A DNA stretch of 64,000 nt from Fulvivirga maritima (GTDB lineage Bacteria > Bacteroidota > Bacteroidia > Cytophagales > Cyclobacteriaceae): positions 1,549,501 through 1,613,500 of the forward strand of contig NZ_CP089980.1 in the NCBI RefSeq assembly GCF_021389955.1, given 5' to 3'. Both the position numbers and the translations under genes were made by a program. The notes under the pieces are model-generated. The model did no database searches, had not been told where the DNA came from, and saw nothing but the letters and a program-made list of their open reading frames with translations. Below are positions 1 through 9,484 of this stretch, one piece after another; the first letter of the stretch is position 1, and each line of letters opens with the position of its first letter.

Positions 1-428
1 GGTTTGTATCTCCCGAATTATTTCAATACTTCCCTCGTCACCTGACTTGTGGACATGTAATAGCCACTGCTTTTTATCTTAGAATGGTATCTATTCCGGC
101 ATTACCCAATGACCGAAAAGAGAAAATTCTGCAATGGATGAACCTTTTTAATATTGATCAATATTTTAACGAAAAATTCTATTCCGTTTCTATCAACATT
201 CAGCGCTTATGCCTATTAGCCAGGGCTTTGATCACCAATCCGGTGCTACTAATTTTAGACGAACCATTTCAAGGCTTTACTCATAATCAGAAAATGTACC
301 ATAAAAAAATTATAGATACCATTTGCGAACAAAGCGACATTACACTCATTTTCGTTAGCCACTATGAGGAGGAAATACCTGAAAGTGTTACTAACACAAT
401 CAGGCTAATAGATGGAAAACAGGCCTAA
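1..428 (+). CDS. ABC transporter ATP-binding protein, ModF-like, 3' part
   Basis: The reading frame is open from the first bases of the window, so only the C-terminal part of the gene is present and the first ATG inside (84) is not the real start. Visible is the second half of an ABC ATPase: a degenerate signature region (VSINIQRLCLLARAL), Walker B LLILDEPFQG and an H-loop FVSHYEEEIP. This combination resembles E. coli ModF, a soluble double-ABC protein of uncertain function linked to molybdate genes. The signature does not read LSGGQ, which is common in the second ABC of this group. No permease gene is visible here. Confidence 0.75.
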   Translation, partial: FVSPELFQYFPRHLTCGHVIATAFYLRMVSIPALPNDRKEKILQWMNLFNIDQYFNEKFYSVSINIQRLCLLARALITNPVLLILDEPFQGFTHNQKMYHKKIIDTICEQSDITLIFVSHYEEEIPESVTNTIRLIDGKQA

Positions 429-429
429 C

Positions 430-912
430 TTATAATTCAGGCCATTTTATGGTATCGTCATCAATAAACTGAGGAGACCACTGTATCTCATCTAATCGTC
501 CTTCATTTATCCAAAAATTAACTGAGTGAGAATTGGATTCAATTAACTTATGATCTGGACTTTCGGCAGACGACCAGTCTTCCATTTCCAGGTCATCCAT
601 TCCTACTTTAGCCAATACTTCCTTCAACTTTTCCTCACTTTGACCAATTAACGTTTCACCCTCTAGCTGGTAAAAATCAGAAGTTACTGAAATTACTATC
701 AGACGCCAATCATCTTCTTCATCAAAATTAAGAGACAAACTCAACTCCTTATAATCCCATGATTCGGTAAGATCTTGATCAGAATCAGTATAAGAATAGC
801 TCTCTACCACATCTGCTTCGCCTAATATTTCCTTAACCTGGTCACGAGTCATACCAAATTTTATAGTACCTAAACCTTCTCCTGGTTTTATATCTTTTAG
901 TTCTATATTCAT
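430..912 (-). CDS. hypothetical protein with FGMT-type motif
   Basis: A 160-residue acidic, cytoplasmic-looking protein without signal peptide or membrane segment. Residues 14-31 read GLGTIKFGMTRDQVKEILG, the GxxxGMTxxQVxxxLG pattern seen in SmpA/BLIP-like folds and in many small Bacteroidota immunity-like proteins. The ATG start at 912 is followed directly by this motif region. It is convergent with the ABC ATPase (stops 1 bp apart) and divergent from the pseudouridine synthase gene. Function is unknown; immunity or scaffold roles are only possibilities. Confidence 0.7.
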   Translation of the reverse strand: MNIELKDIKPGEGLGTIKFGMTRDQVKEILGEADVVESYSYTDSDQDLTESWDYKELSLSLNFDEEDDWRLIVISVTSDFYQLEGETLIGQSEEKLKEVLAKVGMDDLEMEDWSSAESPDHKLIESNSHSVNFWINEGRLDEIQWSPQFIDDDTIKWPEL

Positions 913-1010
913 AACGTTTATTTTAAAGCAAATCTAACCATAATAAAATCAGCATCTCACTTTTTATCCACTAAGCTGACACTGTTTCCTTACTATCAAC
1001 ATTATATTAT

Positions 1011-1018
1011 TACTTTTG
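1011..1018 (+). promoter_or_regulatory. candidate -7 promoter box
   Basis: TACTTTTG fits the Bacteroidota -7 consensus TAnnTTTG, 26 bp before the ATG of the pseudouridine synthase. The -33 box is only loosely matched (TTTC near 985), so the call rests on one element and its position. Confidence 0.4.
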
Positions 1019-1043
1019 CATAAAACGGGTTATAAAAAATTAT

Positions 1044-2066
1044 ATGGAGGATATTGATATTATTGAAGACGATGAGTTATACGAGCATCATCGTATAGTG
1101 GCTGACCCCAAGCAGCAATTACTAAGGATAGACAAGTTTCTGATGGACAGGCTCCCTAATGTAACCCGAAACAAGCTGCAGTCGGCCATAAAGGACGGAT
1201 TTGTAAAAGTGAATGATCAGGAAATAAAACCTAATTACAAGGTAAGGCCTGATGACATTATAACGATTGCTCTGCCTGAGCCTCCGAGAGAAACCGAAGT
1301 AGTACCGCAAGATATACCTCTCAACATAGTTTATGAAGATAAGCATGTGCTTGTGGTGAACAAAGAAGCGGGCATGGTAGTGCACCCTGCTTACCAAAAC
1401 TGGGAAGGCACATTGGTAAACGCTTTGGCATACCATTTTAAAAATCTGCCAGAAATGGAGGGCAATGAGGGCCGACCAGGACTAGTACACCGCATAGATA
1501 AAGACACCAGCGGCTTGCTTGTAATCGCTAAAACTGAACAAGCCATGAATGGACTGGCCAAGCAGTTTTATGATCACTCTATTGAAAGAACCTACTATGC
1601 GCTGGTGTGGGGCTCTCCTGAACCTAATGAAGGTACTATACATATTAACCTGGGCAGAAGCCTGAAGGACAGGAGGATTACTGTGGCTTATGAAGATGAT
1701 ACCATAGGCAAAAATGCCATCACCCATTATAAACTACTGGAAGACCTCAGGTATGTTTCATTAGTGCAGTGTAACCTGGAAACAGGCCGTACCCACCAAA
1801 TCAGAGCCCACATGAAACACATAGGCCATGAGCTGTTTAATGATGCTACTTACGGTGGAGATAAAATTCTAAAAGGCACTCCTTTTTCTAAGTACAAAAG
1901 CTTTGTAGATAACTGTTTTAAAATATTACCCAGACAGGCCCTGCATGCTAAATCCTTAGGATTTGTTCACCCTATTACTAAAGAGTTTATGCAGTTTAAC
2001 AGCGAGCTGCCTGAAGATTTCTCACAAGTATTAGAAAAGTGGAGAAGTTATGTGCAGTATAATTAA
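1044..2066 (+). CDS. rluD: RluA-family 23S rRNA pseudouridine synthase, RluD-like
   Basis: Converts specific uridines in 23S rRNA to pseudouridine. The 340-residue protein has an N-terminal S4 RNA-binding domain (about residues 26-85) and the catalytic domain with HRIDKDTSG at residues 149-157, where D152 is the expected catalytic aspartate, followed by GRTHQIRAHM near residue 250. Length and domain order match RluD-type enzymes. A TAnnTTTG box lies just upstream. A short hairpin (GGCTAA/TTAGCC) follows the stop codon and may act as a weak terminator. Exact target uridines cannot be assigned from sequence, so the symbol is by family resemblance. Confidence 0.9.
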   Translation: MEDIDIIEDDELYEHHRIVADPKQQLLRIDKFLMDRLPNVTRNKLQSAIKDGFVKVNDQEIKPNYKVRPDDIITIALPEPPRETEVVPQDIPLNIVYEDKHVLVVNKEAGMVVHPAYQNWEGTLVNALAYHFKNLPEMEGNEGRPGLVHRIDKDTSGLLVIAKTEQAMNGLAKQFYDHSIERTYYALVWGSPEPNEGTIHINLGRSLKDRRITVAYEDDTIGKNAITHYKLLEDLRYVSLVQCNLETGRTHQIRAHMKHIGHELFNDATYGGDKILKGTPFSKYKSFVDNCFKILPRQALHAKSLGFVHPITKEFMQFNSELPEDFSQVLEKWRSYVQYN

Positions 2067-2229
2067 ATGAAAGGCTAAGTGGTTAGCCTTGGTTTAGTTT
2101 AAGCTGGTTGTTAGTTTTAGTGGGAATGCAGATTGGCGTTCGGTAACTTATGCCCTTCATGCAATTGCAATCATTACTATGCTAGGCTGATTAGGCAGAT
2201 ATTAAACATTTTATTAACTTTAACAAACA

Positions 2230-2327
2230 TGGGGATTAGCTTAACAGGTAAAGCTAGGCAACTGACATATGAATTGCTAATTCATGAGTCAATTGCCGAG
2301 TTGTAGGTTCGAGTCCTGCATCCCCTC
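2230..2327 (+). ncRNA. tRNA-like RNA with extended anticodon stem (GCU loop)
   Basis: All tRNA parts are present except that the anticodon stem is about 17 positions long instead of 5. Acceptor: 2231-2236 pairs with 2320-2325 (6 bp, position 1 is U-U). U8 and A9 follow; D stem GCTT/AAGC (2239-2242/2251-2254) with loop AACAGGTA carrying A14, G18G19 and A21. The arm then runs 2257-2273 against 2281-2297: 5 bp, C-A mismatch, 4 bp, A-A mismatch, U-G, 5 bp, closed by the seven-base loop TTGCTAA (2274-2280), a normal anticodon loop with anticodon GCU. Variable region GAGTT is 5 nt; T stem GTAGG/CCTGC holds loop TTCGAGT. The added 12 positions equal about one helical turn. It lacks the long variable arm of a real tRNA-Ser, so it is called tRNA-like. 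It overlaps the 5' end of the next gene. Confidence 0.6.
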
Positions 2328-3276
2328 AATTGCCTTGGAACAATCAAACTCATATATCTCATTCAAAAATCGAACACAAGAAATTTTTGACTTTGCTGTT
2401 CTAATAACGAGTAGCGTTCCCACTTTTAAGCACAACCTTAAACTTTTTGAATCGGGTGAGATTAATAGACTTTCAGAACCAGATTATTTTCAGCCGTCTG
2501 TCATTTATGAGATAACTCAGTCAACCCTAGTTGATCTAGAAGGTAAAGGTTTAATTGAAGAAAAACTGGAAAAGCTTAGTGATTTAGTGAATATCCCACT
2601 CAACAATAGGGAATTCAAAGAATCCATTATTGCTCGAATTGGAAAAGATAACTATCAGAAGTACCGGAACACCTTGAAACGTCAAAGCGCCGATTACATC
2701 AAAAATTTGCGCGAATGCTCTAAAGCTTACCAAAAGAAGTTAGCATCCTATCTATATTTCTCACTTTTCTCTTATTTTGAAGCTTTCATAGGAGATCTTG
2801 TTAACGAGGTGATTAATGACTTCAATAAACTAAATATTCCAAAACACCTTGAGAAGGTATCAAACATTGATTTTGAGAAAGAAATTAGAATATTGGATAG
2901 AAAATATGACCCACGAAAAATTGATAGATACAAAAAGTATAGCGAACAACTAATTAATAAAGGATATGTAAAGCCAGAGCATCTGATGTTTTCTTCAATG
3001 TTAGATATTCTAAAAGATTCTAATGAAAATATGAAGGCCAATGACATTCCTGACTTTTTGAAAAAATTCTTCTTTTTTGAACTTAGCCCATCAGATAATG
3101 AAATCTACCACAATTTAAAAAGTAATAGAAACTCATTGGGACATGGAGGCACAACATTCACTCCAACTCTTAAAAGTGTAATAGACTCAAATAAATTTTT
3201 TAAACGAATCAGCAAAAAAATAGATACTCATGTCACAAGAAATTTCATGAACCTAAATAACTTTAAAACACCCTAA
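2284..3276 (+). CDS. HEPN-motif protein, putative RNase
   Basis: A 330-residue soluble protein if read from the ATG at 2284. Near its C terminus it has R282-N283-x3-H287 (RNSLGH), the R-x4-6-H motif of HEPN ribonucleases, and an upstream helix-rich region (SLFSYFEAFIGDLVNEV) typical of the first HEPN helices. HEPN proteins are often toxins or defence RNases that cut tRNA or mRNA. The only ATG near the beginning lies inside the anticodon-arm region of the tRNA-like RNA; no other in-frame ATG occurs until about residue 238, though ATT 2329 and TTG 2335 could serve. Either translation starts within the RNA, or the start is non-canonical, or the 5' end has been replaced. AT-rich base use suggests acquired DNA. 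Family assignment rests on the motif only. Confidence 0.65.
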   Translation: MSQLPSCRFESCIPSIALEQSNSYISFKNRTQEIFDFAVLITSSVPTFKHNLKLFESGEINRLSEPDYFQPSVIYEITQSTLVDLEGKGLIEEKLEKLSDLVNIPLNNREFKESIIARIGKDNYQKYRNTLKRQSADYIKNLRECSKAYQKKLASYLYFSLFSYFEAFIGDLVNEVINDFNKLNIPKHLEKVSNIDFEKEIRILDRKYDPRKIDRYKKYSEQLINKGYVKPEHLMFSSMLDILKDSNENMKANDIPDFLKKFFFFELSPSDNEIYHNLKSNRNSLGHGGTTFTPTLKSVIDSNKFFKRISKKIDTHVTRNFMNLNNFKTP

Positions 3277-3576
3277 AACTATTACTAATAAGAAGACAAC
3301 TCTTACTTCAATAGAGCCTGAAATCACCGTTCACACCAGTTTCGCTACACTCAAAACCCTAATCCTCTCCACCTGTAATAAAACCAAATTCATGGATTTT
3401 TTAGTACATTTAAACAACTGATATTCAGTTTATTAAATACAGGAAATCACTTTTGGCATGGCTCTTGATTAATTCACACTATAAGTTATTTACTGATATC
3501 ACTTTATAACTTCTTTAGTTCATGAGATCCCGACTTATTGATTTCATGTAGATGTTAAATCTAAATTTTTAAGGAC
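3277..3576. other. gene-free interval, nothing recognised
   Basis: About 300 bp between the HEPN gene and the next gene. I see no ORF longer than a dozen or so codons, no tRNA and no strong terminator. A small inverted repeat (AAGTTAT/ATAACTT around TGATATCA near 3483-3511) is present but too short to interpret. It probably holds the promoter for the secreted protein that follows. Confidence 0.5.
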
Positions 3577-4239
3577 ATGAAGAAGGTTGCATTACTTATC
3601 GTATTCACTGCATTTATTGCAGGATCTGCTTTAGCTGAAAAAGCTGCAGCTACATTTAGAACAGACAAAGGAGAAAAAATTCAGGTGATTATTAATAATA
3701 AGGTTATCAATCACCAACCAAAATCAATAGTAAAAGTTCAGGGAGGCGGGGGCCTGCTAAACGTGCAAATTAAAGTCTACAACAATCATAATACCTTAAC
3801 CTTAAGAGATAGACTAGACATAAAGCCTGGTTTTAAAAGTGATTTTGTGATTATAAAAACAGGCAGAAATGCTGAAATTCAAAAATCTGCTACAAAACGT
3901 ATTTATAATAATCACTACAGAAGACCAGAAGAGCTGTACAATAAAAAGTATTTTGCACTGATAAGTGAAGAGGGTATGAATACTTTAATGAACCGAATGG
4001 AACGTGCGCATAATGATCAGGATAGATTATTAACCGCAAGAAATAATATTGGTGATAAAAAAATAACCACTTATGATCTGGGTGAAATCTTAACCTCTTT
4101 AGAAGAGGAAGAATCTAAATTAAAATTTGCCAAATGGGCATATAAAAGAACGCTTGATCAGAACAATTACGCCGATATACACACCGCTTTTAAATTCAGA
4201 ACCAGTATAATAGAACTCGATAGATTTATTTACGGTTAG
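3577..4239 (+). CDS. secreted protein, DUF4476-like
   Basis: A 220-residue exported protein with a clear N-terminal signal peptide (MKKVALLIVFTAFIAGSALA). The N-terminal half is beta-rich and lysine-rich; the C-terminal part (about 130-220) is a helical module of the DUF4476 type common in Bacteroidota, with alternating short helices ending in a charged tail. No catalytic motif is visible. It is a single-gene unit closed by a strong terminator right after the stop. Function unknown. Confidence 0.75.
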   Translation: MKKVALLIVFTAFIAGSALAEKAAATFRTDKGEKIQVIINNKVINHQPKSIVKVQGGGGLLNVQIKVYNNHNTLTLRDRLDIKPGFKSDFVIIKTGRNAEIQKSATKRIYNNHYRRPEELYNKKYFALISEEGMNTLMNRMERAHNDQDRLLTARNNIGDKKITTYDLGEILTSLEEEESKLKFAKWAYKRTLDQNNYADIHTAFKFRTSIIELDRFIYG

Positions 4240-4248
4240 TTAATGTTG

Positions 4249-4287
4249 AAAAAAAGCCCTTCAGATTTCTCCGAAGGACTTTTTTTA
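4249..4287 (+). terminator. rho-independent terminator
   Basis: AAAAAGcCCTTC pairs with GAAGGaCTTTTT around a loop of about 10 nt, followed by a run of T. It follows the DUF4476-like gene and can work in both directions, also serving the convergent gene at 4330. Confidence 0.8.
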
Positions 4288-4329
4288 CACTCAAAAATTG
4301 ATCACCATTCCCTCATGATTAAAAGGGTA

Positions 4330-4743
4330 TTATCTTCCTAAAGTCATATTCAAGTCTTTTGGAGCATAAACTGAACTCACCGAAAAATTATAATTTCTAT
4401 AATTATTCAAAAGCTGAGAAGCTTTCACCTCAATAGATTCTTCACAGCCGGGAGTCCAATCTCCGGTGGTAGCCAGCATTATTTCATAATCAGCCACCCC
4501 AACATCAAACTTATAGCTACCGTTGTTATCTGTATAGACTTTTTCACCTCCTATGAGCAGCGCCATTCCAGGAAGTATCTTCTCTCCAACATCATAAACA
4601 CAATTGTCATTTTCATCTACGAAAACCACTCCAGAAATAGTTAATGTTTCTGGCTCTCCACACGCCTCTTCTCCTTCTCTTCCAGTAGCATACATATTCA
4701 CCGCGCTGCTAAGGGCAAATATGGCAAGTAACAATTTCCTCAT
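4330..4743 (-). CDS. secreted SdrD B-like domain protein
   Basis: From the ATG at 4743 the protein is 137 residues and begins MRKLLLAIFALSSAVNMYA, a normal signal peptide; a second ATG nine bases upstream (4752) is less likely. The mature part contains one Ig-like SdrD B/Cna-B type fold: ISGVVFVDENDNCVYDVGE, a calcium-binding-like DxNDNxxxD segment, then YTDNNGSYKF. Such modules are usually structural parts of surface adhesins. Here the module stands alone with a short C-terminal tail lacking an obvious sorting signal. Function unknown. Confidence 0.7.
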   Translation of the reverse strand: MRKLLLAIFALSSAVNMYATGREGEEACGEPETLTISGVVFVDENDNCVYDVGEKILPGMALLIGGEKVYTDNNGSYKFDVGVADYEIMLATTGDWTPGCEESIEVKASQLLNNYRNYNFSVSSVYAPKDLNMTLGR

Positions 4744-4950
4744 TATTAGCATTTTTTAAGTTGTGAAAATGTTATTACATGGGTTGTGCCTAAATATTAA
4801 TTGATTGATTTACAGTTAATTAAGATAATAACCATTTGAAAAAATGTTCCAAAACGCAAAAGACATTCCCAATTCTGGAAGGCAATCCAAAATAGTAAAC
4901 GTTAGGAAATAGTATAAATTGAAAGAAAAAGAGCGGTTACTTTAATAAAA

Positions 4951-6115
4951 CTACTCTGCGTTGCTCTCCACCATTTGACCCACAAGGCTTTCTGAGCGCT
5001 CTTTCTGCTCACGGGTTTCCCTTATAACCTGCTGCAGTTCCTCTTCATTAATAAAGCCTTTGCTATAAGCATGCTGAGCTGCTACAGCTGTATCAGAGAC
5101 TAGAAGCATATCTACATTTAAGGCTTTTATACCTTCAGCCTGCTTTAGCACTTTTTTCTCCTTGCGCTTTTTAGAAACATCTCTAATGTAAATAGCTTTA
5201 ACTCTATCTGGAAATTCCTGTGTTATCTGTGCATAGAGCTCAGAATCTTTCTGGCCGCTATCACCAATAAGGATAAATGATAAATCATCATACAGATCAA
5301 ACAGGTGTCTTATTTTTATCAGTTTATGATTATGAGTGCCTCCTCCAGAGCTCATCAGCTCCCAGAGGCTGGTTTTCAATTCTTGTAATAAAAAAGGGCC
5401 TTTGGGAATATTCCGCACCTCACAGAAGTTTTCAAGAAAATCATAAAGATTCCACTCACTGCTACTGACATAAAATATGGGATTAGAAGCATCGCTCTTG
5501 GTGCCTCGTCGCAGCGCATCATAAAAAGCGGCCACACCGGTAAACGGTAATCTGGTTTTAGAATTTTTAGTAAGGATAAGCCTCAGCTTTCGCAAGGTTT
5601 GGGTAGCGTGAGAAATAAGGATAGTATCATCTACATCAGAGATTATTCCATAGCAAGAATTAGCCTCTTCCAAATATACCTCTGTCTCGGTTTCTATCTC
5701 TTTCTGATCATCTACAATCTTATCTAACACCTTGAAACAGGCCTTATGCCAGCCCTGTTGTGGCAGCTCCTCTTCAAACTCAAATACCGCTTCAAAAAGG
5801 CCATTTTCATTGGTCACTACTTCTTTTTCATAGCCAAACAGTCTTACCTGCACTCTTACATCAGGAATGGCTTCACTGAGATAGCGGCTTATCATGGCTC
5901 TAAAATTCTTCCTCCGCCTATCGCCTTCATTTGATTCATAAAGCACCCTATCATCCAGCACATGGCCCCGCAGGTACACCTTCTTTCTTGAGCCATAACC
6001 CCGATAAGGAATTATGGTAGGTGGGGTAAGTACGCCTAGCCATTTTTTTAGCCTTAATGACAGCTTTTTAACCGGTTTTCTAATTAACTTTTTGATAGAT
6101 ATCTGTTTTCTTCAT
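4951..6115 (-). CDS. App1-family phosphatase (DUF2183), likely frameshifted start
   Basis: Phosphatidate phosphatase App1-like HAD enzyme. With the first in-frame alternative start (GTG at 5979), SDVDDT occupies residues 114-119, followed by VSSSEWN and ILIGDSGQKDSE, the three HAD motifs. The frame remains open upstream of 5979 for more than 120 bp and encodes PYRGYG, usual at the N terminus of this family, but without any ATG. An ATG at 6115 lies one frame off: removing one A from the AAAA run at 6106-6109 gives a start MKKQISIKKLI that joins the frame. So the gene is probably 4951-6115 with a one-base insertion or sequencing error. It neighbours a lipid kinase, divergently oriented, which suggests lipid metabolism. 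Confidence 0.8.
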
Positions 6116-6151
6116 AACCATTTATAATCCCTTAATGTTATTTGAGGACGT

Positions 6152-7030
6152 ATGAGCCACTTATTGTTTGTAATAAACCCTATTTCAGGAGGAATTGATA
6201 AGTCTGACTTGCAGAAGCAGATAGAGAGCTGTTGCAAAAAGCAGCAAGCCGAATATTCCATTATTGAAACCAAAGGTAAAAATGATCAAGAAAGAATATC
6301 AGATCGTATTAAAGAAATCTCTCCTGATACTGTGGTGGCCTGTGGCGGTGACGGCACTATTAACCTGGTAGCCAATGTGCTTTTAGGTTATGACAATATC
6401 AAACTGGGCATTATGCCCCTGGGCTCTGCCAATGGCTTGGCCACTGAGTTAAACATACCTGAAGATGTGGAAGATTCGCTGGAGATCATTCTTGCTGGCA
6501 AAACCATTCATATGGACATCTTGCGAATAAACAAGGAACATATTTCACTTCATTTGAGTGACATTGGTTTTAACGCCACTTTAATAAAAAGATTTGAAGC
6601 CAGTGGCTCGCGAGGTAAAATGGCTTATGCAAGACATTTTTTCACTACGCTATTTAAAAAGAAAGCCAGAAAATATCAGTTCGATTTAGGTTATACTAAA
6701 TTTAATCAAAGGGCAGAAATGGTGGTTTTTGCTAATGCTACTAAATATGGCACTGGCGCCGTAGTAAACCCCGAAGGCCAATTGGATGACGGTAAATTTG
6801 AAATCTGCATTTTCAAACCATCTCCGTGGTATGCTATGTTCAGCCTGGCATATCATTTTTTTACCGGGAATATGAAAAGATCGCGCTATGTCTCCATTCT
6901 AACAGCGGAAGAACTGCGCCTGTATACTAAAAAAGCAGATACTCTTCAGATAGATGGTGAAGATTTGGGCGAATACACAGAAGTTTATGTGCAGATAGAA
7001 CCTGCACAGCTGCACGTGATAAGAGGCTAA
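6152..7030 (+). CDS. diacylglycerol/lipid kinase family protein
   Basis: Phosphorylates a lipid such as diacylglycerol using ATP, on the cytoplasmic membrane face. The 292-residue protein carries the DAGK catalytic motif GGDGT at residues 65-69 and PLGSANGLA at 89-97, equivalent to the nucleotide-binding PLGTxN motif. The C-terminal domain ends with LQIDGEDLGEY, typical of the YegS/BmrU fold. It lies divergent from the App1-type phosphatase with only 36 bp between the proposed starts, so the two may share control and act on related lipids. The actual substrate is not readable from sequence. Confidence 0.88.
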   Translation: MSHLLFVINPISGGIDKSDLQKQIESCCKKQQAEYSIIETKGKNDQERISDRIKEISPDTVVACGGDGTINLVANVLLGYDNIKLGIMPLGSANGLATELNIPEDVEDSLEIILAGKTIHMDILRINKEHISLHLSDIGFNATLIKRFEASGSRGKMAYARHFFTTLFKKKARKYQFDLGYTKFNQRAEMVVFANATKYGTGAVVNPEGQLDDGKFEICIFKPSPWYAMFSLAYHFFTGNMKRSRYVSILTAEELRLYTKKADTLQIDGEDLGEYTEVYVQIEPAQLHVIRG

Positions 7031-7114
7031 CCTCAGCACTAACTACCAAATAACCAAGCATACCTCCACTCAAACAAAGCCTGTTTTTAGTAAAGATGAA
7101 TTGCTTATTTTTAA

Positions 7115-9484
7115 ATGACTAAAACTCATTACTATGATAAGAATTCTCTGTTTACTGCTATTTCTTTTGCCGCCAAGGCGCAGTACTCCTCCACATTGTC
7201 TATCCCTGAAATAATGAAGGGAGAAGATTTTGTAGGTTATCTGCCCGAAAGAGTGCAATGGAGCCCAGATAGCAAATACATTTATTTCTCCTGGAACCCC
7301 GACCATGAGCTGATTAGAAGCATGTATAAGGTAGAAATAGCCACAGGAAAAATCAGCAAAATGACTGATGAAGAGCAAAAAGCCAGAGTATATATTGATA
7401 CTTACAATGATGATCGCAGCCTGATGGTTTATAATAAAGACGGAGATTTATTTCTGTACAACACTAAAACAGGCAAAGCAAAACAGATTACCAATACACT
7501 AGAAAGCGAAAGTGGCCCCGAATTTTCTGGTGACCAAAAGCAGATCATCTATTCTGTAGGTAAAAATTTATTTGCCTGGTCTATTGCTGATGGCACCACT
7601 CGTCAGCTCAGTAATTTTAAATCAGGCTCTGAGAGAAAGGAATCTAAGGAATCACCACAACAGGGATGGCTAAAAAATGACCAGCTGGCTCTGTTTGAAG
7701 TGCTCAACAAAAGAAAGGAAGAAAGTGAACTGAGCAAGGAGCAAAGAGAAAACTTAAAGCCAGAAAGGCCTTTAGAAATTTACGTGGGTGATAAAGATGT
7801 TTTTGGCCAAAAAGTGAGCCCTGATTTGGCCTACATCACCTATAGATTAAGAAAAGAGGCGAAGCAAAAGAATACTGAAGTAACCCATTTTGTAACAGAG
7901 TCTGGCTACACTACTCAAAGCCCGGCGAGATCAAAAGTAGGCATAGAAGAGGACACCTATGAAATGGGCATCTATGACATTAAAAATGACACTACTTATA
8001 CCTTGGACACTAAGCAAATAGAAGGTATTTATGACAAACCAGCCTTCTTAGAAGATTATGCTGATGGAGATTTCGATCCTAAATATGAAACACCGAGAGA
8101 GGTAATTTTTCATGGCCCATTCTTTTCTAAAAATGGTAATGCCTTTGTTGATATCCGCTCTCAGGATAACAAAGATCGTTGGATTATGCTGCTAGATCTG
8201 GCTAGCGGTAAGCTTACACTAGTAGATCATCAACATGATGATGCCTGGATTGGAGGCCCCGGCATCAGCTCCTGGAATTTCTTCCCTGGCAATCTGGGTT
8301 GGCTGGCTGATAACGAAACCATATGGTTTCAATCTGAAGAAACCGGATATTCACATTTGTATACCTATAACATTAAAAGCAAAAAGAAGAAAGCACTCAC
8401 TAAAGGTGATTTTGAGATAAGAGAGGCTAAACTTTCTAATGACAAAAAACACTTTTACCTACAAAGCAACAAGGTATCTCCTCATGTGAACCACTTCTAC
8501 AAAATGCCTGTAACCGGAGGTAAAATGATGCAGATCACCTCTTTGGAAGGCCGAAATGATGTTACTATCTCACCTGATGAAAAACAGCTGGCAGTATTAT
8601 ACTCTTACAGCAATAAACCTACGGAGCTGTACCTCATGAAAAACAGTGAAGGGGCGGCTATGAAACAACTTACGAACTCTACAACAGAAGCGTTCGATGC
8701 CTATTCCTGGAAAGATCCTGAAATCATTCGCTTTGAAGCGGAAGATGGCGCAAAAGTACCCGCCAGAATTTATAAGCCAGAAAAGCCAAATGGTGCAGCA
8801 GTAATATTTGTTCATGGCGCCGGCTATCTACAAAATGTACACAAATGGTGGAGTTCTTATTATCGTGAATTTATGTTTCATAACTACCTCACAGATATGG
8901 GCTATACCGTTTTAGATATTGATTACCGTGGCAGCGATGGTTATGGCAGAGACTGGCGCACAGGCATATACCGATGGATGGGAGGCAAAGATCTTTCCGA
9001 CCAGGTAGATGGAGCTACTTATTTAGTAAAAGAACAAGGAATTGATAAAGACAGAATAGGCGTCTATGGAGGGTCTTATGGCGGCTTCATTACTCTTATG
9101 GCTATGTTTACCGCTCCTGACACCTTCCAAAGTGGCGCGGCACTGCGTTCGGTTACTGATTGGGCACACTATAATCATGGATATACTGCCAATATTTTAA
9201 ATACGCCTGCCCAGGACAGCATTGCTTATGCTAAAAGCTCTCCTATTTACTTTGCCGAAGGCCTAAAAGGGAAGCTGGTAATGCTTCATGGTATGGTAGA
9301 TGATAACGTACAGTTTCAGGATGTGGTAAGACTATCACAAAGGCTCATTGAATTAGGCAAAAAAGACTGGGATTTGGCCGTTTTCCCTATGGAGAGACAC
9401 GGCTTTGTAGAAGCAAGCAGCTGGGCTGATGAATACAGAAGAATTTATGAACTCTTCGAAGAAACACTGAAAAAAGAAGAATAA
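7115..9484 (+). CDS. S9 family prolyl oligopeptidase/DPP-type peptidase
   Basis: Exported serine peptidase of about 790 residues with an N-terminal beta-propeller (roughly 40-530) and a C-terminal alpha/beta hydrolase. The nucleophile is S654 in YGGSYGGF, the acid lies in MVDDNVQ (D729/D730) and the histidine is H762 in ERHGF. The ATG at 7115 gives an N terminus without a proper signal peptide. The ATG at 7134, one frame off, gives MIRILCLLLFLL, and the 7115 frame then reads AAKAQ. A single missing base near 7165-7172 would join them into a good signal peptide with cleavage AKA|Q. So the N terminus is either frameshifted or mis-sequenced. Confidence 0.9.
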   Translation: MTKTHYYDKNSLFTAISFAAKAQYSSTLSIPEIMKGEDFVGYLPERVQWSPDSKYIYFSWNPDHELIRSMYKVEIATGKISKMTDEEQKARVYIDTYNDDRSLMVYNKDGDLFLYNTKTGKAKQITNTLESESGPEFSGDQKQIIYSVGKNLFAWSIADGTTRQLSNFKSGSERKESKESPQQGWLKNDQLALFEVLNKRKEESELSKEQRENLKPERPLEIYVGDKDVFGQKVSPDLAYITYRLRKEAKQKNTEVTHFVTESGYTTQSPARSKVGIEEDTYEMGIYDIKNDTTYTLDTKQIEGIYDKPAFLEDYADGDFDPKYETPREVIFHGPFFSKNGNAFVDIRSQDNKDRWIMLLDLASGKLTLVDHQHDDAWIGGPGISSWNFFPGNLGWLADNETIWFQSEETGYSHLYTYNIKSKKKKALTKGDFEIREAKLSNDKKHFYLQSNKVSPHVNHFYKMPVTGGKMMQITSLEGRNDVTISPDEKQLAVLYSYSNKPTELYLMKNSEGAAMKQLTNSTTEAFDAYSWKDPEIIRFEAEDGAKVPARIYKPEKPNGAAVIFVHGAGYLQNVHKWWSSYYREFMFHNYLTDMGYTVLDIDYRGSDGYGRDWRTGIYRWMGGKDLSDQVDGATYLVKEQGIDKDRIGVYGGSYGGFITLMAMFTAPDTFQSGAALRSVTDWAHYNHGYTANILNTPAQDSIAYAKSSPIYFAEGLKGKLVMLHGMVDDNVQFQDVVRLSQRLIELGKKDWDLAVFPMERHGFVEASSWADEYRRIYELFEETLKKEE

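Follow-up and report, generated by a model that had tools for sequence, protein, structure and literature searches.

A tRNA-like RNA with an extended anticodon arm precedes a HEPN ribonuclease-type gene in Fulvivirga maritima: a candidate RNA-controlled module

Introduction

An Rx4-6H motif is the signature and catalytic motif of HEPN proteins, and motifs of the form RN...H are read as HEPN-type by the same rule. In addition to this shared motif, several members of the group have been connected with tRNA, with phage defence or with control by RNA. The superfamily of HEPN proteins includes anticodon nucleases (PMC3710099), and the domain HEPN_RiboL-PSP (PF18735) is listed in the phage-defence systems PD-T4-2, PD-T4-5, PD-T7-3 and ApeA (PMC10952713). 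The closest studied case to the locus described here is the AbiF/AbiD-RCd22 system of Clostridioides difficile (PMC12373285), in which the upstream non-coding RNA RCd22, with a major form of 98 nt, neutralises the HEPN-like AbiF both in cis and in trans (PMC12373285). Moreover, RNA-controlled HEPN-like nucleases have been proposed as ancestors of RNA-targeting CRISPR effectors (PMC12373285).

Here, a stretch of 64,000 nt of the Fulvivirga maritima genome (contig NZ_CP089980.1; referred to as the window) was analysed with regard to a tRNA-like RNA that lies directly upstream of a gene with a HEPN_RiboL-PSP domain. The fold of the RNA, its conservation and genomic context, and its likeness to other tRNA-like RNAs were used to weigh the possible roles of the gene pair, which the comparison suggests to be a toxin or phage-defence module of a new, RNA-controlled kind.

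Results

Structure of the tRNA-like RNA

In the Rfam scan the RNA (Table 1) was matched by the tRNA family RF00005 with 37.3 bits against a gathering score of 29, which is the lowest of the 43 RF00005 matches in the genome, a single contig of 6.39 Mb; ARAGORN made no tRNA call at 2230-2327. The minimum free energy is -39.2 kcal/mol with z = -5.45, and none of 200 shuffled sequences was equally stable. The first acceptor pair is a U/U mismatch in the window and reads G-C and A-U in the relatives described below. Absence of an encoded CCA end is normal for this genome, since CCA is found at the annotated end of only 1 of its 42 other tRNAs. As far as positions can be read from the sequence, the RNA has the D-loop GG, the T loop UUCGAGU, U8, A14 and a variable loop of 5 nt, and a tRNA elbow of the kind whose contacts are described in PMC7609411 should therefore form. 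No family of direct repeats of at least 12 nt was found in the RNA.

The anticodon arm consists, in order, of 5 bp, a C/A mismatch, 4 bp, an A/A mismatch and 6 bp beginning with U-G. This amounts to 15 pairs in 17 positions and makes the arm about one helical turn longer than normal, so that the RNA departs from the 5-bp anticodon stem and 7-nt loop of a decoding tRNA. In the minimum-energy fold two extra A-U pairs are placed within the loop UUGCUAA. The fold and the RF00005 match thereby confirm the original prediction of a tRNA-like RNA with 15 pairs in 17 positions, two mismatches and this loop. Its view that the RNA is not a decoding tRNA is likewise borne out: elsewhere the genome encodes a regular tRNA-Ser(GCT) whose variable arm is long, and the long variable arm that had been noted as missing for the anticodon GCU is indeed replaced by the 5-nt loop. 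Comparison with the 42 host tRNAs gave no clear isotype for the RNA.

Table 1. Features of the locus, with positions counted from the first base of the window
Feature	Position	Strand	Basis or remark
Variable segment holding the RNA and the HEPN gene	2077..3363		Absent from the same-genus genome G286
Bacteroidota -7 promoter-like box TAACTTTA	2215..2222	+	One mismatch to TAnnTTTG; 7 nt upstream of the RNA
tRNA-like RNA with extended anticodon arm	2230..2327	+	RF00005, fold, homologues in L003 and L004
Acceptor stem, 5' strand	2230..2236	+	Pairs with 2320-2326
D arm GCUU-AACAGGUA-AAGC with G18G19	2239..2254	+	Identical in L003 and L004
Extended anticodon arm	2257..2297	+	Loop UUGCUAA at 2274-2280
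T arm GUAGG-UUCGAGU-CCUGC	2303..2319	+	Rfam match, alignment
Acceptor 3' strand and discriminator base C	2320..2327	+	CCA not encoded
HEPN gene, predicted TTG start, 313 aa	2335..3276	+	PF18735 match; conserved TTG
Catalytic-type motif R-N-S-L-G-H (Rx4H)	3127..3144	+	Protein alignment

The HEPN gene and its predicted transcript

In the longer reading frame 2284-3276, HEPN_RiboL-PSP (PF18735) was matched over residues 136-317 with E = 3e-9 and 37.5 bits against a cut-off of 28.4. The residues R, N, S, G and H of the motif RNSxGH are invariant in all three proteins of the family. The window protein had no NCBIfam match, and the PADLOC-DB protein models returned 0 families for the proteins of the window and of L003. 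The best match of the PDB profile search had an E-value of only 0.049, and the AlphaFold model of the HEPN protein, built from the 3-row alignment, reached a mean pLDDT of 52.3.

The gene of the window starts 7 nt downstream of the RNA. Counting from base 1 of the RNA, a TTG codon occupies position 106 in the window as well as in L003 and L004, and the distance of this codon from the discriminator base is 6-7 nt across the three loci. An in-frame stop lies within the RNA of L004 and therefore no HEPN start lies inside the RNA there; from these positions, TTG 2335 is probably the true start. In each of the three loci the stretch directly before the TTG, the 3' strand of the acceptor, is predicted to be paired.

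The sequence TAnnTTTG is the Bacteroidota -7 consensus and was confirmed in Flavobacterium johnsoniae (PMC7366714). In addition to the box of the window, exact TAnnTTTG boxes are located 4 nt before base 1 in L003 (TAAATTTG) and 3 nt before base 1 in L004 (TAACTTTG). No -33 box was seen by eye upstream of the RNA, and a sigma-70 type scan of 2050-3600 gave no promoter on the plus strand. The pattern scan of the same interval found terminator-like sites at 2071-2090 only, and no terminator between the RNA and the HEPN gene. The -7 box and the constant 106-nt offset of the TTG suggest that RNA and HEPN gene probably share one transcript, of which the RNA is probably the 5' part, starting at or near RNA base 1.

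Conservation of the RNA in three lineages

When species genomes were scanned with the frame 2284-3276, two relatives emerged, in Pedobacter psychroterrae (L003) and in a Flavobacterium MAG (L004), with best segments that are 63% identical. In both, the RNA is located directly 5' of the homologous gene (L003:2447-2544, 45.6 bits; L004:566-664, 44.0 bits), so that RNA and gene are linked in 3/3 full-length members found of the HEPN protein family of the window. Since the structure recurs beside the same gene in L003 and L004, it is not a product of chance.

For the three sequence pairs, whole-RNA identity is 79/98, 79/98 and 93/98. The identity of the RNA core in the same pairs is 66/67, 64/67 and 65/67 columns, the core being columns 8-39 and 61-95, which were picked after viewing the alignment and omit the acceptor and the arm tip. 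At the fourfold-degenerate codon sites of the gene, 22/56, 12/49 and 36/66 positions are identical (24-55%), and the constraint on the RNA therefore far exceeds that on the adjoining near-neutral sites. In the three-RNA alignment 98.9% of pair cells hold standard pairs, and four of the 30 pairs change on both sides, three in the acceptor (of 7) and one in the anticodon arm (of 14). This count of four was reached by 5 of 500 shuffles, and slid versions of the alignment gave 0-2. Within the arm a UGAC/GUCA helix is invariant, with a conserved C/A mismatch below it. The arm tip varies, and the folded loops of L003 and L004 contain neither U33 nor a recognisable anticodon. A covariance model of the three RNAs scores its own members, which match by construction, with 119.7-123.5 bits; below these, its top scores in the three genomes go to a tRNA-Met (41.6 bits) and an odd tRNA-like RNA of 122 nt (40.2 bits), and ordinary tRNAs in wider samples score up to about 50 bits.

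Comparison of the three lineages thus establishes, at the level of sequence, selection on the RNA and its linkage to the HEPN gene. The original prediction of a conserved tRNA mimic is upheld, as L003 and L004 keep the long stem and a normal 5-bp stem occurs at 0/2 homologous loci. Display of an anticodon, which had also been proposed, found no support: GCU is specific to the window.

Rarity, variable site and genomic context

Protein and profile searches found the gene in 1/291 genomes of the order, the window's own, and not in the same-genus genomes G253, G274 and G286. It was found in 1/301 genomes of the L003 family, L003 itself, and in 2/395 genomes of the phylum, namely the window's own and L011, the latter with a partial match of 19 bits. 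A DNA search with the RNA likewise matched 1/291 genomes, the own one. PF18735 was matched in 15/148 genomes of the phylum, the window's own among them. At 16 other HEPN_RiboL-PSP loci and L011 no tRNA match was found and the RNA model scored at most 15.5 bits, and within the sample the RNA is therefore limited to the HEPN subfamily of the window. Near a weak HEPN match, a Group II intron domain (RF02001) was observed at L030:2947-3120.

The genome G286 aligns with window positions 1-2076 at 98.8% and resumes at 3364 with 91.4%, with 582 other bases in between. Window positions 4267-4946 are also unaligned to G286, and a minus-strand frame of 140 aa there weakly resembles SdrD_B. The L003 locus lies near genes for a relaxase, MobC and a serine recombinase; among the 8 window proteins at 84-9484 no mobility gene was recognised. 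Plasmid and phage records searched with the proteins and with the L003 RNA, and viral contigs searched with the proteins and the exact D-arm string, yielded no match.

A divergent RNA beside a different gene

Searches with the RNA model were run independently of the protein with E ≤ 1e-8. They matched 3/279 genomes of the L004 family, L004's own included, and 9/267 genomes of the L003 class, L003's own included. Eight of the 10 new hits are ordinary tRNAs according to ARAGORN, and the other two are L092 and L101.

The L092 RNA (genome G1202, of the L004 family) has an anticodon arm of 18 pairs and z = -3.69. The stop codon of a 282-aa gene (L092:669-1517) shares bases with the start of this RNA, which therefore lies at the gene's 3' end. 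The protein had no Pfam, NCBIfam or PADLOC match, and hhalign of A4 against it gave a probability of 0.7%, that is, no relation. A relative on a Vibrio plasmid, 23% identical and encoded in second position after the anti-phage gene hhe, retains the HEPN-type RN...H motif RLRRNxIxH; no tRNA match was found nearby in the Vibrio stretch. Gene and RNA of L092 are flanked by 41-nt direct repeats that are 71% alike (L103:5626-5666 and 6721-6761), which are reminiscent of cassette (attC-like) ends.

When L092 is included, 95.8% of pair cells are standard and 11/30 pairs are altered on both strands, 7 of the 14 arm pairs among them, in an alignment that was fitted to the model and thus leans toward it. 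Eleven such changes were reached by 0/500 shuffles, with 1-4 in slid versions. The compensating arm changes expected by the original prediction are accordingly few among the three close members (1/14) and become clear with L092 (7/14, model-fitted alignment). The D-arm strings GCUUAA and GGUAAAGC are common to all four RNAs and occur in 0/42 host tRNAs.

Odd tRNA-like RNAs without HEPN neighbours

The second non-ordinary hit, L101 (genome G1319, 48.9 bits), has a long arm and sits in a tRNA cluster on a phage-like contig, among whose scanned proteins no HEPN was recognised; on these grounds it was left out of the module count. On L104, a phage-like contig of 13.2 kb (head maturation protease, PHROG 94), seven tRNA matches were observed, some with enlarged arms. 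They include matches at L104:4901-4992 (minus), at L104:4492-4583 and elsewhere, and one has an anticodon stem of 10 bp, a bulge and 6 bp. The L104 RNAs could be phage decoys against tRNA nucleases.

A pattern of D arm and T arm yielded six viral loci (L105-L110) with tRNA-like RNAs of 29.9-40.3 bits. The model matches span 100-113 nt, one 77 nt, and share the GCUUAA/GGUAAAGC D arm and a tRNA T arm; their central regions are irregular, and a single 17-position arm is present in 0/6 minimum-energy folds. A loose scan within 1.5 kb of these RNAs gave six matches of R[NDH]x3-5H in five frames at three loci, and nothing HEPN-like was noticed in the five frames. Ten viral loci found by a stem pattern scored at most 22.6 bits with the RNA model, or had no score, and were set aside as chance.

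The 122-nt RNA of the L004 genome (L111:1230-1351, minus, G292:C271) combines an acceptor and a T arm of normal form with an unusual central part, and its weak tmRNA match lies below the gathering score. ARAGORN called no tRNA there, and no HEPN motif was recognised in the neighbouring frames listed. A frame of 332 aa begins about 230 nt downstream of the RNA.

The D stem GCUU/AAGC is therefore not unique to the gene pair, which weakens the case for L092 as a homologue rather than a parallel. Because six viral RNAs share the D-arm strings and have no such arm, common descent of the L092 RNA is not proven; and since odd tRNA-like RNAs without HEPN match the same model, the HEPN-type neighbour of L092 could be a coincidence.

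Discussion

The explanation favoured here, with a probability that we place just short of even, is a two-part toxin or defence module: the tRNA mimic would bind the HEPN_RiboL-PSP ribonuclease and keep it in check. It is supported by the linkage in 3/3 members, the conservation of the RNA, the compensatory pairs and the HEPN domain with its invariant motif. The promoter-like box, the 106-nt offset, the variable site and the mobile contexts also support it, as do the AbiF/RCd22 precedent, the presence of PF18735 in phage-defence systems and the HEPN-type neighbour of L092. Counted against it are the small number of close members (three) and the slight variation of the arm pairs (1/14), the other HEPN_RiboL-PSP loci without a tRNA match and the odd RNAs without a HEPN neighbour. 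The L092 protein without database match, the Vibrio relative without tRNA match, the absence of a PADLOC match for the window protein and the lack of a terminator between RNA and gene, unlike RCd22, also weigh against it.

We infer that the RNA is transcribed and neutralises the HEPN protein. Processing of the tRNA 3' end, of the RNase Z type, would cut the RNA out of the transcript, and its tRNA-like shape would let the free RNA outlive the mRNA. It would then bind the HEPN protein as a pseudo-substrate, the long arm occupying the RNA-binding site and offering no cleavable anticodon loop, and would so hold the nuclease silent. If transcription or tRNA processing were disturbed, for example by a phage, the RNA would be lost, and the freed nuclease would attack tRNA or other RNA, with dormancy or abortive infection as the outcome. 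The RNA fold just before the TTG may also restrict HEPN translation in cis. A decoy for a tRNA-acting enzyme, as originally suggested, is plausible in so far as the RNA adjoins a gene for a predicted RNase whose superfamily has anticodon nucleases among its members (PMC3710099).

Autorepression through the leader is the main alternative to such a module, although we consider it unlikely. The RNA would then be a 5'-UTR operator only, and the HEPN protein would bind or cut its own leader and repress translation, in a manner reminiscent of thrS, where the synthetase binds a tRNA-like operator. The TTG follows 6-7 nt after the discriminator base, the acceptor 3' strand is predicted to be paired at each of the three loci, and transcription probably begins with the RNA, all of which would suit an operator. 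However, the conserved tRNA elbow and acceptor exceed the needs of an operator, and the RNA of L092, if this is a true relative, overlaps the 3' end of its gene and cannot block initiation. A leader-only role is therefore not general, and, on the same condition, a role in trans is the likelier one, given that one family has the RNA 5' of its gene and the other 3' of it.

The RNA might instead be an activating cofactor or sensor that the HEPN protein requires, so that cutting of the arm by a phage tRNA nuclease or by processing would switch the enzyme on. The linkage in 3/3 members and the invariant UGAC/GUCA helix with the conserved C/A mismatch below it would fit this role, but the literature matches listed hold no HEPN precedent for a tRNA-shaped activator, and we regard it as distinctly unlikely. 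A functional tRNA with a short insert spliced out of its anticodon loop is very improbable: the remainder of the RNA is tRNA-like, yet the lower arm is invariant with no conserved anticodon, no clear isotype emerged among the 42 host tRNAs and the host has a full tRNA-Ser(GCT). A functionless tRNA that decayed at the integration site of an element is barely credible, for although tRNA genes are common integration sites, the locus is a variable spot and other odd tRNA-like RNAs exist, the core columns are near-identical while the fourfold sites are far diverged, the acceptor pairs are compensated and three lineages share the long arm. Both of these readings, the spliced tRNA and the integration-site relic, were rejected, as was that of a decoding tRNA.

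Beyond the two-part module of the window, the loci may represent a new module class, an extension that we put forward tentatively and hold to be possible rather than probable. Here, an antitoxin RNA in the shape of a tRNA, its anticodon arm overlong by one helical turn, would be paired with more than one HEPN-type ribonuclease, taken as two families, RiboL-PSP with the RNA 5' and an unclassified one with the RNA 3'. Mobile elements and cassettes would spread the pairs. The mimic would hold the nuclease in a substrate-like, uncleavable pose and would at the same time sense damage to tRNA or its processing. If the control of the HEPN protein by the RNA is true, it would show how a tRNA mimic can hold a nuclease, would point to a tRNA substrate and would explain how the tRNA fold can be repurposed through a change in one arm only. 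It would also be a caution that an odd tRNA call of low score may belong to such a module.

With AbiF/RCd22 the locus shares a HEPN-type protein and, ahead of its gene, a structured RNA of about 98 nt that is co-transcribed at the 5' end of the transcript (PMC12373285), the transcript being a predicted one here, as well as the phage or mobile context (PMC12373285). It differs in that RCd22 consists of two abiF hairpins and a terminator and is not tRNA-shaped, and AbiF belongs to another HEPN family; the abiF motif RF03085 had no match in a gathering scan of the window or an E-value scan of 2100-3350. Type III toxin-antitoxin systems (ToxIN, TenpIN, CptIN, AbiQ) also have an RNA gene directly 5' of an RNase gene, and the arrangement of the window with its -7 box would fit their one-transcript organisation. 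Their antitoxins are described as tandem repeats of 34-50 nt and their toxins as ToxN homologues (PMC12373285), whereas the RNA of the window is a single tRNA-like unit with no repeat and no terminator between RNA and HEPN gene.

PrrC and RloC are HEPN RNases with a tRNA substrate (PMC3710099), and a tRNA mimic is therefore a sensible inhibitor of such an enzyme. They differ from the present pair in being held by restriction-modification proteins or their own ATPase and not by RNA. The operator of thrS is similar as a tRNA-like element just 5' of a start codon; here, no synthetase gene is present, the whole elbow and acceptor are kept, and the L092 RNA lies 3' of its gene. Departures from the 5-bp rule are also described for tRNA-Pyl, mitochondrial tRNA-Ser(UCN), tRNA-Sec-like RNAs and allo-tRNA (PMC7609411), but the stems of tRNA-Pyl and mitochondrial tRNA-Ser(UCN) have 6 bp (PMC7609411) as compared with 15 pairs in 17 positions beside a nuclease gene here. 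An RNA of this form was absent among the literature matches listed, from a search that was light on subscription journals. With a function that is one we infer, the locus thus joins what is known, a HEPN nuclease controlled by an RNA, with what is new, the architecture of that RNA.
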